Source of the DNA: Planctomycetota bacterium
Lineage (GTDB): Bacteria > Planctomycetota > UBA1135 > GCA-002686595
Assembly (NCBI GenBank): GCA_011524785.1
Contig: WTJQ01000016.1
Location: forward strand, 1 to 5,421
Direction of reading: 5' to 3'
Length of the DNA stretch: 5,421 nt
Shown here one piece after another: positions 3-5,292 of the stretch; the first letter of the stretch is position 1, and each line of letters begins with the position of its first letter. A model generated the notes under the pieces. It was not told the origin of the DNA. It saw only the letters and a program-made list of their open reading frames with translations, and ran no database searches. The position numbers were made by a program, and so were the translations under genes.

Positions 3-926
3 CTGGTGCTGCCCGAGGAGGGGCAGGGTCACGCGCCGCTCGTCGCCCGGCTCACCGACCATGGTGCCGGACAGGGTGAAGGTGGTGCCGTCCGCGCCGA
101 ACTCGAGGTCCGTCGCGAGGAGGTCGGCGTTCGGGTCCTTCAGGCTGAACCAGTGCACGCGCGCGCGGGACATCGCGGCCATCGACGCCGTTCGGGAGCA
201 GTCCGCGTTGAGGACGCAGAAGCCCCCCTCGGGCAAGGCCGCGGGGAGCGCTCCCTTCTCGGTCGCGACCCCGTCCTCGTCCCCGAGCCCCTCGAGGTGG
301 CTGGCGCCCACGTTGGTCACGATGGCCCCCGTGGGACGCGCGAGCCGCGCGAGGTGAGCGATCTCACCGCGGCCGTTCGTGCCCAGCTCGGCCACGAGGA
401 CCTGTGCGTCCTCGGGACAGGCCAGCAGGGTGTGCGGCACCCCCACGTCGTTGTTGAACGACGCCGGGCTGGCGGACGAGCGCAGGCCCGCAGCGCGCAG
501 GAGCACGTGCAGCATCTCCTTGGTGCTCGTCTTCCCGCAGGAGCCGGTGATGCCCACGACCTCGAGGTCGCGCAGCTCACGGACCCAGCGGCCCAGGTCC
601 CCGAGAGCGCGCCGCGTGCAGGTGACCTCCAGAACGGGGACCCCCAGCTCGGCGGAGCGGGCCCCGCTCCCCGGAGCGACGACGACGGCGGCGGCACCGG
701 CCTCGACCGCGGCGGTCACGAAGCGCGCCCCGTCGAAGTTCGGGCCACTCAGCGCGACGAAGAGGTCCCCGGCACCGAGCGTCCGCGTGTCGGTGGAGAC
801 GCGCTCGATCGCGAGGTCTGCGATCGAGCCGTCCACCTGGGCACCCATCGCGTCAGCGAGGTCCTGGAGGGTCCAGCCCGTCTTGGGGAGCGACTCCGCT
901 GTCGAGTTCATGGCGATCGAGGTCAT
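3..926 (-). CDS. murF: UDP-MurNAc-tripeptide:D-Ala-D-Ala ligase MurF (partial, C-terminus beyond left edge)
   Basis: MurF is the cytoplasmic ATP-dependent ligase that adds D-Ala-D-Ala to UDP-MurNAc-tripeptide, the last cytoplasmic step before MraY. The first 308 codons are visible (family about 450), so the C-terminal domain is missing at the window edge. The N-terminal domain shows STDTRTLGAGDLFVAL (residues 44-59), the usual Mur-ligase UDP-substrate domain. The ATP P-loop is GITGSCGKTSTKEM (125-138). MurF-type signatures follow: FNNDVGVP (157-164), ELGTNGRGEI (180-189), TNVGASHLEGLG (204-215), and EKGAL (223-227), whose K224 is the expected carbamylated lysine. The ATG at 926-924 overlaps the murE stop as ATGA and has GGAG 8 bases upstream; a second in-frame ATG at 911 is less well supported. 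The P-loop Cys130 replaces the commoner Ser, Asn or Ala, which is probably tolerated. The assignment is firm because MurF motifs and position after murE agree. Confidence 0.95.
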   Translation of the reverse strand, partial: MTSIAMNSTAESLPKTGWTLQDLADAMGAQVDGSIADLAIERVSTDTRTLGAGDLFVALSGPNFDGARFVTAAVEAGAAAVVVAPGSGARSAELGVPVLEVTCTRRALGDLGRWVRELRDLEVVGITGSCGKTSTKEMLHVLLRAAGLRSSASPASFNNDVGVPHTLLACPEDAQVLVAELGTNGRGEIAHLARLARPTGAIVTNVGASHLEGLGDEDGVATEKGALPAALPEGGFCVLNADCSRTASMAAMSRARVHWFSLKDPNADLLATDLEFGADGTTFTLSGTMVGEPGDERRVTLPLLGQHQ

Positions 927-938
927 CCTGTCAGCTCC
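923..938 (-). promoter_or_regulatory. murF ribosome binding site and ATGA stop-start overlap
   Basis: The minus strand reads GGAG (938-935), eight bases, then ATGA, where the murF ATG (926-924) overlaps the murE stop TGA (925-923). The Shine-Dalgarno is inside the last murE codons. It decides the murF start over the in-frame ATG at 911 and indicates coupled translation of murE and murF. Confidence 0.8.
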
Positions 939-2440
939 ATGGCCGCGCGCTCGTCGAGTGCGGCCTGCGCGACGGTCCGGTCGTCGAAGGGGTGGCTGCC
1001 CCTCGCATCCACCTGCACGGTCTCGTGGCCCTTGCCGGCGATCAGCACGACGTCGCGCGGCGTGGCCTCCGCGATCGCCGTTCGAATCGCGGCCTCCCGG
1101 TCGAGCTCTCGGATCACGCGTGCCAGCTGCGCATCACTCAGCGCGGCGCACACCTGGTCCGCGATCGCATCCGGATCCTCGGACCGCGGGTTGTCGCTCG
1201 TGAGCAGGACGCGGTCGGCGAGGCGCGTGGCGGCGTCGCCCATGGCGGGACGCTTGCCGCGGTCGCGATCCCCGCCGCACCCGAAGACGCACCAGAGGCG
1301 CCCACCCCGGGCATCGAGCGAGGCGCGCAGGGCTCGGAGGGCGCGCTCGAGGGCGTCCGGCGTGTGCGCGTAGTCGACGATCACCTGGGGCGTGGGAGTG
1401 TCGCCGCCTGCCCGGAGCGCTTGCATGCGCCCCGGGGCAGGCGTGCAGGAGGTGAGCCCGGCCAACGCGTGGTCCGGACCCACCCCCGCGACGAGCGCGC
1501 AGGCGAGCGCCGCGAGGGCGTTCTCGACGTTGAAGCGGCCCCGGAGGTGGAATCGCACATCCCGCGCTGGAATCCCCATCCCAGACAAGTGGAAGGATGT
1601 GCCCTCCCGGGTCGCTCGCAGTCGAGACGCCATCAGATCGGCGCGCGTCCGCGTGCTGTATCGGAGGACCCCGGCCCCGCGGGCGCGCGCGGCGCGCGCC
1701 ATGCGGTCCGAGGCTGGATCATCGGCGTGGACGATCGCCGTCCCGCCGGGTGCGAGCGCCTCGAACAGGCGGGCCTTCGCCGCGCCGTACGCGTCGAGGG
1801 TCCCGTGGTAGTCGAGGTGGTCGCGGCTGAGGTTCGTGAAGATCGCCGCGTCGAACGCGAGGCCCGCGTGGCGCTCCTGGACCAGGGCGTGGGAGCTGAC
1901 CTCCATGGCGAGCGCGTCCCCCCCGGCGGCGCGGTGCGCGGCCATGAGCTGAGCCAGGGCGGGGGCGTCGGGCGTGGTGTGCGTGGCCTCCCGCGGCCCG
2001 TCCGCGAGCTTGTGGCCCGCGGTCCCCAGCACCCCCGCGCGGCGACCGCCGGCCTCGAGGAGATGCGCCACGAGGTGGGCGACCGAGGTCTTGCCGTTCG
2101 TCCCGGTGACCCCCGCGAGGAAGGTCGCGGCTGCCGGCTCCCCCGCGAAGGCCTGGGCGAGGATCCCCGTGAGCTGGGCCGGCGCGTCGTGGATCCACTG
2201 GGGCGTGCCGCCAGCGAGCCCCTCGAGGGGGCGCGGCGCGACGATGGCCACGGCGCCGCGCGCGACGGCGTCGGTCGCGTAGCGCGCCCCGTCGTCCCGG
2301 GTCCCCGGGAGCGCCACGAACAGGTCGCCCGGCACGACCCGGCGCGAGTCCAGCTGGACCCCACGGGCCTCCGTCGCGGCCGCGGCTCGGTCACCGCGGA
2401 GCCAGCCCCCATGGGCGCGCACGAGCTGCTGGAGGCTCAT
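923..2440 (-). CDS. murE: UDP-MurNAc-L-Ala-D-Glu:meso-DAP ligase MurE
   Basis: MurE is a cytoplasmic ATP-dependent ligase that adds the third stem-peptide residue to UDP-MurNAc-L-Ala-D-Glu. The 505 residues are complete and near the E. coli length of 495. In order: the N-terminal substrate domain with LDSRRVVPGDLFVALPG (30-46), ATP P-loop GVTGTNGKTS (110-119), TTPDA (155-159), MEVSSHAL (179-186), FTNLSRDHLDYHG (201-213), K222 in GAAKARLF as the probable carbamylated lysine, GRFNVENALA (301-310), VDYAHTPDAL (355-364), FGCGGDRDRGKRP (386-398), DNPR (416-419) and GKGHET (469-474). In characterised MurE enzymes the DNPR arginine binds the free carboxylate of meso-DAP, so DAP is the inferred substrate rather than L-lysine. 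The ATG at 2440 is chosen because the Mur domain begins there, GGAGG lies 5 bases upstream, and it overlaps the PBP stop as ATGA. The frame stays open upstream, but that extension is Arg/Gly-rich shadow sequence. The stop overlaps the murF start in the same way. Confidence 0.97.
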   Translation of the reverse strand: MSLQQLVRAHGGWLRGDRAAAATEARGVQLDSRRVVPGDLFVALPGTRDDGARYATDAVARGAVAIVAPRPLEGLAGGTPQWIHDAPAQLTGILAQAFAGEPAAATFLAGVTGTNGKTSVAHLVAHLLEAGGRRAGVLGTAGHKLADGPREATHTTPDAPALAQLMAAHRAAGGDALAMEVSSHALVQERHAGLAFDAAIFTNLSRDHLDYHGTLDAYGAAKARLFEALAPGGTAIVHADDPASDRMARAARARGAGVLRYSTRTRADLMASRLRATREGTSFHLSGMGIPARDVRFHLRGRFNVENALAALACALVAGVGPDHALAGLTSCTPAPGRMQALRAGGDTPTPQVIVDYAHTPDALERALRALRASLDARGGRLWCVFGCGGDRDRGKRPAMGDAATRLADRVLLTSDNPRSEDPDAIADQVCAALSDAQLARVIRELDREAAIRTAIAEATPRDVVLIAGKGHETVQVDARGSHPFDDRTVAQAALDERAAMELTG

Positions 2441-2450: not shown

Positions 2451-5292
2451 CCGCCCTGGCGCCCTCGTGGTCGAACGCGGGCGCGACCTCTCGCGGCACG
2501 TCCCCGAGCCAGGCCCTGCCCGTCCTCACACCGTCGCGGCTGGCGCCATCCTGCTCGGCGGGCTGCACCCTCTCGGGCTCCTCGGCCCGAACCGCCGCGG
2601 TGACCGGCGCCTGCCCCGCGAGGTCCTGGGGCTCCTCGGACAGTCCAAGCGCACGACGGAGCAGCCGCGCGGCCACGGGCCCCGCGACCTTGGAGCCGAA
2701 GTGGCCCCACAGAGGGAACTCGGTGACCTCGTCGACGACGACGAGGGTCATGACCTGCCGTCCCTGCGCGTCCTCACCGAACGCGAAGATCGAGGAGGTG
2801 TAGCAAGGGCACTCGTGACCGCGCCCAGCGGCCTTGAGCTCTCGACGGCATGCGCTGCTGCAGCGAGAGCCCTCGGCCTCGTGGCGCAGCCAGTGGCGCG
2901 CGTCGGCGTGACTGCAGGGAACGCCGGCCTCCTTCTCGGTGGTGCCGGTCTTGCTGCCGAAGCGCTCGACGCCGCGTCCCAGGAACCAGCGCTTCGCCAG
3001 CTCGGCCCCCGTGCCCCGCCAGTGGTCGTTCTCGGGGTACAGCGGATGGTCGGGGTGCATGTGGTGCACCGTGCCCTGGAAGGCCGGGTCGGTCCCACCC
3101 GCGCCCAGGCGCATGTACTCGACGATGCGGCGGCACTCGGCCGCGGAGAGGACCTGCTCCGGCGCCGCACTGCCTCGGGCCGTTCGCAGGAAGCGCAGGG
3201 GCGTGCGCTCCCCCTCGCGGAGGAGGGTCAGCAGCGCCTCGGCCATCTGGAGCGCGTTGACCTGGAGGGCGTGCCCGAAGGAGAGGCTCGCCGGCGTGAG
3301 CCCCGGGACGGGCGCTCCCCGCTCGGCTCCGTCCCAGCGCTCCACGGGGAGCAGGACCCCATCGCGGATGGGGCCGATGCCGAGATCGCGCGAGGGGCCG
3401 AGCCCGAGGGCACGCAGGCGGTCGTGGAACCGGTGCGGCGGGATCCGCATGCCGATCTGCACGAGCACCGCGTTCTGGGAGTGAGCCAGGCCGTAGGCCG
3501 CGGTGTGCAGGCCCGGCTTGGCCCCCTTGGCCTCCTTCACGCGGCGCGGGCGGCCCGCCACCCGGATGCCATCCATGCCGTTCGAGCGGAAGCGCTCCTC
3601 GGGCGTGACCACGCCGGCGTCGAAGGCGACCGCCATCACGAGCGGCTTCATGATCGAGCCGGGCGTGAACAGGTACTGCGCCGGCATGAACCCGCTCAGC
3701 GCGTAGCCCGAGTGGTCCGCGATCGCGAGGACCTCTCCGGTGGCGACCTCGACCACCAGCGCCATCGCCCCGGCCGCGTCGTGCTCCTCGGTCACGCTCC
3801 GCACGAGCTCCTCGGCGCGCAGCTGGAGCCCCGTATCGAGCGAGGTGAGCACCTCCAGCGGCTGCTCCGCAGCGCTGGCGTCGAGATACCCGTCGAACCT
3901 CCCCTCGGCAAGACCCAGGTCGAGGGGGTCTGCATCGACCCCATCGAGCCGCGCCTGCTCGACGCGGCGCTTGGCCTCACGCCGGAGGCCGCTGATCGCC
4001 TTGCGCACGTCGCGCGGCAGCACGACCCGCTCCCACTCGTGAGCAGCCCCCGACGCCGAGGCCTCGCCCCGCAGGACCTCGCGAACGAGCCGCTCGATTC
4101 CCGACCATGGAGCGGGCTCGTTCATGAGGGCATCGACACGCTCCGTGAGCGGGTCGCCGGCCCCCTCGAACTCGAAGCGCCAGGGCTCGTGCTCGAGCTC
4201 CCATGCCGCGCGCCGCTCGGCTGCGCCCCGCGTGAGCGTGCCCCAGTGCCCGAGCACCTCGAGGGCCTTGTCGCCGAGTCCAGGGATCGCCTGCGCGGCG
4301 CCCATGGGCACGTTCGCGCGCTCATCGTCGGTCGCGAGGTGGAGGCGCTGCATGCGCTCGCGGGCCTCCAGCTGCCAGGAGGTCACCCCCTCTCTCGCGA
4401 GGAGCTCGCGGACCTCGGCCGCCGTCACGGCGTCGAGGCCCTTGGCGACGACGCGGTGCCGCGACGGCACCAGCTCGGCCCACAGGCGGTCGGCATAGGC
4501 CTGGACGCGCTCGTCGCGAACGCGGTCCGCGCCGAGGCGCGCGAGGAGCGCGGGAGCGAGCCCCTCGCTGGCGAGGTCGAGGCTCCCGGAGGCGTCCGAC
4601 AGGTGGCCCAGGACCAGCCCCAGCTCGTGGAGCAGCCAGCGGGTCCAGCGCTCAGGATGTCCCTCGACCTCGGCCCCGAGGACGCGAGTCCGCACCTCCT
4701 CGCCCAGGAGGAGCGAGGGGCACCAGCACAGTGCGTCCGGTCCGCCGGCGGGATCCACGCTCATGGCCGCCTCGAGCCCGTGCTGAGCGACCCAGGCGGA
4801 GAGCCGGGTCGCCTGATCGCCGGAGAGCTGCGTGAGCCGGGCCCCCGTCGCGGCGACCCAACCGGGCCCCAGGTCACGAGCGCGGCCGCGCGGCTCCGGC
4901 AGCAGCCGCAGCAGGACGTCAGCCTCCGTCCAGCCCTCCGGCAGCACGGGCGCCAGGACCTCGTGGAGCTCGGATGCGATCCGCCAGGGCGTATGGCCGC
5001 GCAGAAGGGCATTGGGAGAGCCCTCCAGGTCCGCCAGCTGAACCGTGATCGCGAGCGGGCGGCCGTCCCGATCCAGGAGGATGCAGGGCCTGTCCTCGTA
5101 CTGCTCGTGAGCGGCGCGAACCAGGGGAGCGGGACGAGCTCCCAGCGCGAGTCGGATGGCGGCGAAGCCAGCCGCTGCGAGGCTGAGGCCCAGCACGACG
5201 AGCGCGGCCATCGGGCGGATCCCGCCGCCCCCATTGCTGGTCCCCTCTCCCCCCATCGCCCTCAGCTCATCCCCTCGGATCCGCGGACTCAT
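2437..5292 (-). CDS. ftsI: Large class B penicillin-binding protein, FtsI/PBP3-like septal transpeptidase
   Basis: This is a membrane-anchored D,D-transpeptidase that cross-links peptidoglycan, by position the septal enzyme FtsI. Numbering is from the ATG at 5292 (951 residues). A basic cytoplasmic tail (1-27) precedes one membrane segment (about 28-49). The class B N-terminal signature appears as LLDRDGRPLA (72-81), then an enlarged pedestal to about 480. The transpeptidase domain opens with TSLDTGLQL (483-491). The catalytic motifs are SIMK (S546, K549, inside PGSIMKP), SQN (605-607) and KTGT (781-784), so it should be active. The fold ends near SKVAGPVAARLLRRALGL (867-884), followed by a polar tail of about 68 residues. 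Usual FtsI length is 570-650. The extra sequence is in the pedestal and on both sides of KTGT, where His- and Cys-rich insertions occur. The start is uncertain: ATG 5292 has a weak GGA 8 bases upstream and overlaps the ftsL-like gene by 26 bases; ATG 5256 lies 10 bases after that stop; TTG 5319 is also in frame. Another class B PBP subtype is possible, but the dcw position favours FtsI. Confidence 0.9.
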   Translation of the reverse strand: MSPRIRGDELRAMGGEGTSNGGGGIRPMAALVVLGLSLAAAGFAAIRLALGARPAPLVRAAHEQYEDRPCILLDRDGRPLAITVQLADLEGSPNALLRGHTPWRIASELHEVLAPVLPEGWTEADVLLRLLPEPRGRARDLGPGWVAATGARLTQLSGDQATRLSAWVAQHGLEAAMSVDPAGGPDALCWCPSLLLGEEVRTRVLGAEVEGHPERWTRWLLHELGLVLGHLSDASGSLDLASEGLAPALLARLGADRVRDERVQAYADRLWAELVPSRHRVVAKGLDAVTAAEVRELLAREGVTSWQLEARERMQRLHLATDDERANVPMGAAQAIPGLGDKALEVLGHWGTLTRGAAERRAAWELEHEPWRFEFEGAGDPLTERVDALMNEPAPWSGIERLVREVLRGEASASGAAHEWERVVLPRDVRKAISGLRREAKRRVEQARLDGVDADPLDLGLAEGRFDGYLDASAAEQPLEVLTSLDTGLQLRAEELVRSVTEEHDAAGAMALVVEVATGEVLAIADHSGYALSGFMPAQYLFTPGSIMKPLVMAVAFDAGVVTPEERFRSNGMDGIRVAGRPRRVKEAKGAKPGLHTAAYGLAHSQNAVLVQIGMRIPPHRFHDRLRALGLGPSRDLGIGPIRDGVLLPVERWDGAERGAPVPGLTPASLSFGHALQVNALQMAEALLTLLREGERTPLRFLRTARGSAAPEQVLSAAECRRIVEYMRLGAGGTDPAFQGTVHHMHPDHPLYPENDHWRGTGAELAKRWFLGRGVERFGSKTGTTEKEAGVPCSHADARHWLRHEAEGSRCSSACRRELKAAGRGHECPCYTSSIFAFGEDAQGRQVMTLVVVDEVTEFPLWGHFGSKVAGPVAARLLRRALGLSEEPQDLAGQAPVTAAVRAEEPERVQPAEQDGASRDGVRTGRAWLGDVPREVAPAFDHEGARAGRGR

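Follow-up and report, generated by a model that had tools for sequence, protein, structure and literature searches.

Genes of the window

The DNA analysed here (the window, 5,421 bases) is a single contig of a draft Planctomycetota genome, G000 (3.43 Mb in 652 contigs, 79% complete), and carries on its minus strand a class B penicillin-binding protein (PBP) gene followed by two Mur ligase genes (Table 1). The PBP scored 80.1 bits against PF00905 in the Pfam profile search (cut-off 22.1), and the residues of the SxxK, SxN and KTG motifs that characterise class B PBPs, namely S546, K549, S605, N607, K781 and T782, are invariant in our alignment A1. Residues are counted throughout from ATG 5292; translation probably starts 12 codons later, at ATG 5254-5256 (residue 13), where the near-identical proteins P0001 and P0002 begin. 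A membrane helix is predicted at the N-terminus (residues 27-50). Compared with Pseudomonas aeruginosa PBP3 (FtsI), whose matched chain has 490 residues, the window protein is several hundred residues longer, and Pfam recognised no PF03717 pedestal domain in it up to an E value of 1, but the predicted structure of the window protein can be aligned with entire PBP3 chains starting at its residue 64.

In the same-genus record L004 (Planctomycetota bacterium isolate BS301-5m-G81), the gene order is mraW, a small open reading frame, the PBP, two Mur ligases, an mraY-family gene and an FtsW-family gene. From this order, and from the overlap between the PBP and the first Mur ligase gene in the window, the PBP is assigned by position to the ftsI slot of the dcw cluster, in the interval between mraW and murE. 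No curated FtsI or PBP2 model was matched at its cut-off: all 12 NCBIfam families listed stay below theirs (best score 56.2 bits against 455), and we therefore call the protein an FtsI-slot PBP rather than a curated FtsI. Just one other transpeptidase-domain gene was found in G000, adjoining a second FtsW/RodA-family gene. Among the eight genomes of the window's family searched for PF00905, seven have two such genes (one of them split into two pieces in G404), and G444 has three.

With the ftsZ model TIGR00065, none of the 81 genomes of the window's family gave a match, and 13 of 14 control genomes did. For the way in which a family with no detected ftsZ divides, this PBP would offer a single-protein handle. 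The ftsI gene is reported as non-essential in Planctopirus limnophila (PMC10632474).

Table 1. Genes, motifs and insert residues of the window, with residues numbered from ATG 5292
Feature	Position	Strand	Basis or occurrence
Mur ligase, murF position, truncated by contig end	3..926	-	PF08245
Mur ligase, murE position; ATG overlaps PBP stop (ATGA)	923..2440	-	PF08245 and PF02875
Class B PBP gene, ftsI slot, 951 aa	2437..5292	-	PF00905; start and stop reading
PBP stop codon	2437-2439	-	Sequence reading
SxxK motif, S546-K549, catalytic serine	3646..3657	-	S546 and K549 invariant in A1
SxN motif, S605-Q-N607, x = Gln	3472..3480	-	Sequence reading
KTGT motif, 781-784	2941..2952	-	Sequence reading
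KTGT-to-beta4 stretch with insert, 785-830	2803..2940	-	54 residues K781-S834 (17-33 in insert-free homologues)
C793, candidate ligand, set A	2914..2916	-	Cys in 81/83
Helix 1, predicted, 794-807, H800 and H804 four apart	2872..2913	-	AlphaFold2, full length and insert alone
H795, candidate ligand, set A	2908..2910	-	His in 83/83; 72/72 rows of A4
H800, candidate ligand, set B	2893..2895	-	His in 52/83
H804, candidate ligand, set B	2881..2883	-	His in 56/83
C811, candidate ligand, set B	2860..2862	-	Aligned 5 residues earlier, as C806, in 30/83
Helix 2, predicted, 813-822, holds C815	2827..2856	-	AlphaFold2, full length and insert alone
C815, candidate ligand, set B	2848..2850	-	Cys in 52/83
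H826, candidate ligand, set A	2815..2817	-	His in 78/83 columns; near C830 in 79/83 by segment search
C828, outside both sets, unconserved	2809..2811	-	Cys in 4/83
C830, candidate ligand, set A	2803..2805	-	Cys in 82/83

A Cys/His-rich insert that marks one family

From K781 to S834 the window protein has 54 residues, against 17-33 (median 22) in 13 insert-free homologues, so that about 32 residues are added to its beta3-beta4 loop; among insert-bearing proteins this length ranges from 50 to 64. The first-pass annotation, made on the DNA letters, had placed an insertion between KTGT and the next strand, and this is borne out, as are the nine Cys/His residues that it listed, with their coordinates, minus strand and place after KTGT. 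Residues 785-830 hold five Cys and four His in 46 positions; the remaining 905 residues have four Cys and 26 His. The binomial p for this enrichment is about 2e-5, the stretch having been chosen post hoc. The main argument that such a composition did not arise by chance is that it is kept in homologues: the insert is present in 82 of 95 proteins of the first search, the remaining 13 being ordinary FtsI types. A second protein search, with the insert region of P0035 as query, gave 120 hits, of which 37 were already known; all 83 new ones have the insert.

Within the window's family, 73 of 81 genomes carry the insert, including all 29 with at least 90% completeness and at most 5% contamination, and the eight with no match are drafts of at most 82% completeness. 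In a survey of the phylum with profile A3, with scoring limited to 12 candidates per genome, 162 of 392 genomes matched at an E value of 0.001 or better. Twenty-two of these belong to the window's family and match through the insert at 1.4e-18 or better; the best of the 140 matching genomes outside the family reached 4.8e-11, and no family genome is among the non-matches listed, from near to far kin. Most of the outside-family matches listed begin at A3 position 36 or later, G285 and G090 beginning at 12 and 26, respectively. When 30 loci across the phylum outside the family were read, these two included, none had the insert, and short loops were found there. Beyond the phylum, coverage consists of the protein searches, in which most hits lack an organism name; the named insert-bearing proteins come from Planctomycetota, from records labelled 'bacterium', from Engelhardtia mirabilis and from one Candidatus Paceibacteria (P0067), the last perhaps a binning error. 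Judged from these searches and loci, the insert is a lineage marker of the window's family within Planctomycetota. One 616-residue homologue, P0151, is annotated with PF04230 besides PF00905, and is either a fusion or an assembly error.

Two sets of four residues in the insert

The five cysteines had been presented as one group in the first-pass annotation. A single five-cysteine cluster is ruled out by the alignment of 83 proteins, in which C828 is a cysteine in only four, and the other eight Cys/His residues fall into two nested sets of two Cys and two His, which we call set A (C793, H795, H826 and C830) and set B (H800, H804, C811 and C815).

Set A is entire in 79 of these 83 proteins, in 82 of the 83 further proteins from the P0035 search and in 68 of the 73 insert-bearing family genomes, three samples that overlap and are not independent, and it is nearly invariant over the 40 genera with matches. 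Of the set A residues, H826 is missing from each of the five genomes in which the set is broken, C793 from three of them and C830 from two, and H795 is kept throughout; the counts include L026, where the 'H826' returned by the script was a chance upstream His and was reset to lost, and where H795 was placed by eye. L022 and L024 retain just C-H-C. The homologue from Engelhardtia mirabilis (P0082), a cultured organism, has three of the four set A residues and lacks set B. C793 and H826 are gone from L066, which retains C830, and C793 and C830 are jointly lost in L085 and L026, i.e. in two of the three genomes that have no C793. H795 persists in all three (L066, L085 and L026) after loss of the rest of the set, which points to a further role for this residue, perhaps one at the active site. 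All five genomes with an incomplete set A also lack set B, so that set B is never found where set A is broken.

Set B behaves as a unit that is either present or absent. Searching the raw segments rather than alignment columns, we found that 52 of the 83 proteins have both HxxxH and CxnC, 31 lack both, and no protein has just one of them. After thinning to 37 members under 72% identity, set B was present in 14 and absent in 23, with none mixed (Fisher p 1.6e-10, kinship ignored). Of the 73 genomes, 36 have four set B ligands, in 33 cases HHCC, in one HHCH (L058) and in two DHCC (L005 and L050), and the other 37 have no set B, 16 of them holding one or two scattered Cys/His residues in that stretch. 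The 83 further proteins comprise 40 with plain HH and CC, 34 with neither, and nine that were recognised by eye as four-ligand variants; these nine count as mixed under the strict rule of the script, and in that sample the all-or-none pattern comes from reading the sequences. Four of the nine have Asp for the first His, three have the second His shifted to just before the Cys pair, and two are spaced unusually: P0133 has the order H, C, H, C, and in P0175 the two Cys stand side by side. Altogether Asp replaces H800 with the rest of set B intact in six proteins (L005, L050, P0101, P0103, P0114 and P0131), and in L058 His replaces C815 with the rest intact. Random loss of the residues, named beforehand as an outcome that would speak against a site, is not the pattern seen, given a set A that is whole in 79 of 83 proteins and a set B that is all or none. 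In one genus, g2, L025 and L084 have two other cysteines (SCAEEN...C) in place of set B together with an intact set A; these substitute cysteines may perhaps form a disulfide there.

The history of the two sets was followed on a quick maximum-likelihood tree that leaves out the insert and covers 73 family members and seven outgroup rows; 25 of its 77 inner branches are open. It requires a minimum of six changes in set B and of three in set A. Pair tests on supported branches agreed in direction in four of four cases (p 0.125), too few for significance; when strict His-His was counted, about 3.5 of five agreed, none opposed, and the others showed no difference. Such all-or-none behaviour makes set B a natural experiment in the gain and loss of a putative metal site.

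Predicted structure of the insert

AlphaFold2 models the insert as a helical hairpin with a block pLDDT of 81-92, and the two helices seen in the full-length model recur when the insert is modelled alone; a disordered model, the other outcome named beforehand as adverse, was not obtained. C793 and H795 lie at the transition from beta3 to helix 1, and H826 and C830 at the start of beta4. With profile A3 as query against PDB sequences, 40 were matched at E values up to 1, none via the insert, and their best stretches all lie within A3 positions 51-102, i.e. from the end of the insert onward. A fold search with the insert alone gave no significant match, to solved zinc domains or otherwise, a result that says little.

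Metal binding as the preferred explanation

A conserved set of two Cys and two His that is gained or lost as a whole, and whose ligands can shift position or be exchanged (His with Asp, Cys with His), is what a metal site typically looks like. Taken together with the conservation described above, this makes it likely, at a probability of roughly 0.7, that the lineage-wide insert, a predicted helical hairpin, binds one structural metal ion through set A, and a second one through set B in about half of the relatives. The metal is probably zinc, since zinc is usual for two Cys and two His. In such a structure, set A would tie the end of beta3 and helix 1 to the start of beta4, clamping both ends of the insert, and set B would pin the HxxxH of helix 1 to the Cys pair of helix 2, clamping the hairpin itself. 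Where ordinary class B PBPs have a mobile loop, the two sets together would thus create a rigid lid, or a knob for docking, next to the active site, and the insert may control substrate access or partner docking.

A metal site and a disulfide-braced lid had been left side by side in the first-pass annotation. The joint conservation of Cys and His supports the structural metal site; the disulfide half fares badly, as the histidines track the cysteines. If C793-C830 and C811-C815 were bonded outside the cytoplasm, where the predicted membrane helix puts this domain and where disulfides are common, the histidines would have to be kept for surface contacts, substrate binding or the like, and the joint loss of C793 and C830 in L085 and L026 fits a disulfide too. 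Yet a disulfide needs no histidine, and here the histidines share the fate of the cysteines, be it conservation, loss, replacement or a change of place: HxxxH and CxnC are present or absent together in 83 of 83 proteins, L066 keeps C830 despite the loss of C793 and H826, C815 has given way to His in L058, and Asp stands for H800 in six proteins that keep both cysteines. For these reasons metal is favoured over disulfides, and we regard a disulfide-braced lid as unlikely.

A bound metal might instead be labile and exchangeable, the loop reshaping on zinc loss or thiol oxidation and so switching cross-linking. Sensing of redox state or zinc has been proposed for zinc-PBPs (PMC9334274, PMC9974482), and the six or more changes of set B on the tree mean that it is dispensable; the near-invariance of set A over 40 genera suits a structural site better, and a sensor seems quite improbable to us. 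Least credible is an insert with no cofactor at all, whose Cys/His-rich surface would be kept purely for contacts with a divisome partner. Its variable length and the H795 that outlasts the rest of set A would agree with a docking surface of this kind, but residues of ligand type persist amid variable neighbours, and contacts hardly account for exchanges between His and Asp or between Cys and His.

Comparison with known metal sites in PBPs

Zinc-PBPs are known from Clostridioides difficile (PBP2, PBP3 and SpoVD; PMC9334274) and Acinetobacter baumannii (PBP2; PMC9974482). In these proteins zinc lies near the active site and is needed for stability; its ligands are the x of SxN together with residues ahead of it in the beta-hairpin region, for example in the pattern D-x14-D-x5-H-x12-C. 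The window protein resembles them in being a serine transpeptidase with a candidate four-residue Cys/His(/Asp) site, Asp and Cys being interchangeable in theirs according to the same text. Unlike in those proteins, the candidate ligands here come after KTGT, in the beta3-beta4 loop. The sequence hallmark of the class with zinc at SxN is absent: x is Gln in the window, and the known motif was not found in the 73 genomes, where x is Cys in seven and a His 13 residues before it occurs in none of the seven.

A long segment at this place does have a counterpart in C. difficile PBP2, whose 'coiled-coil stretch' (residues 805-915) is a long run of helices joining beta3 to beta4; other PBPs have about 5-20 loop residues there (PMC9334274). 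Helices between beta3 and beta4 are thus common to that protein and to the prediction for ours (794-807 and 813-822), but its insert is about 110 residues long and its zinc is bound at SxN, outside the insert. No sequence match was found between our insert and a solved chain, and common descent is not supported.

In gonococcal PBP2 the same loop swaps between extended low-affinity and inward high-affinity states, with involvement of a His at the edge of beta4 (PMC8503634). The transpeptidase domain of that protein has no long insert, and no metal was noticed in the loop in the portion of the source available. A clamp in the beta3-beta4 loop would fix or bias the motion known from this enzyme.

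A Rieske [2Fe-2S] site, with its pattern of C-x-H followed by C-x-x-H, does not fit: in the 68 genomes with a full set A the second half reads H-x1-7-C. A search of literature titles and the beginnings of abstracts, with thin coverage of subscription journals, turned up nothing on metal bound in a beta3-beta4 loop or on a metal site of a planctomycete PBP.

A lid in the beta3-beta4 loop braced by metal would lie at another place than the known SxN zinc site and would probably be independent in origin. If real, it would be a second and unrelated metal solution, on the KTG side of the cleft, the zinc sitting at SxN in PMC9334274 and PMC9974482; this would suggest that transpeptidases have been stabilised or controlled more than once by pinning the loops around the cleft with metal. 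A broader proposal, which we put forward tentatively and consider somewhat doubtful as a whole, is that a family of FtsZ-less Planctomycetota has an independent class of metal-dependent PBPs, with one or two zinc ions stapling the beta3-beta4 lid of the dcw-cluster transpeptidase, the second of them gained or lost repeatedly as a unit, and with septal cross-linking set by zinc or redox state.

Other conserved positions of the PBP

Outside the two sets, position 720 is Cys in 76 of the 83 proteins and Ala, Ser, Val or Arg in the 13 insert-free homologues, and column 836, in strand beta4, is Cys in 65 of 83 and Phe in the window. Both cysteines occur together in 62 of 83, and it is possible that C720 and Cys836 form a disulfide or a buried pair. 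Residue 674 (SFGHA), in a conserved FG-x motif of the transpeptidase domain, is His in 75 of 83 proteins, against Gln in 11 of the 13 insert-free homologues.
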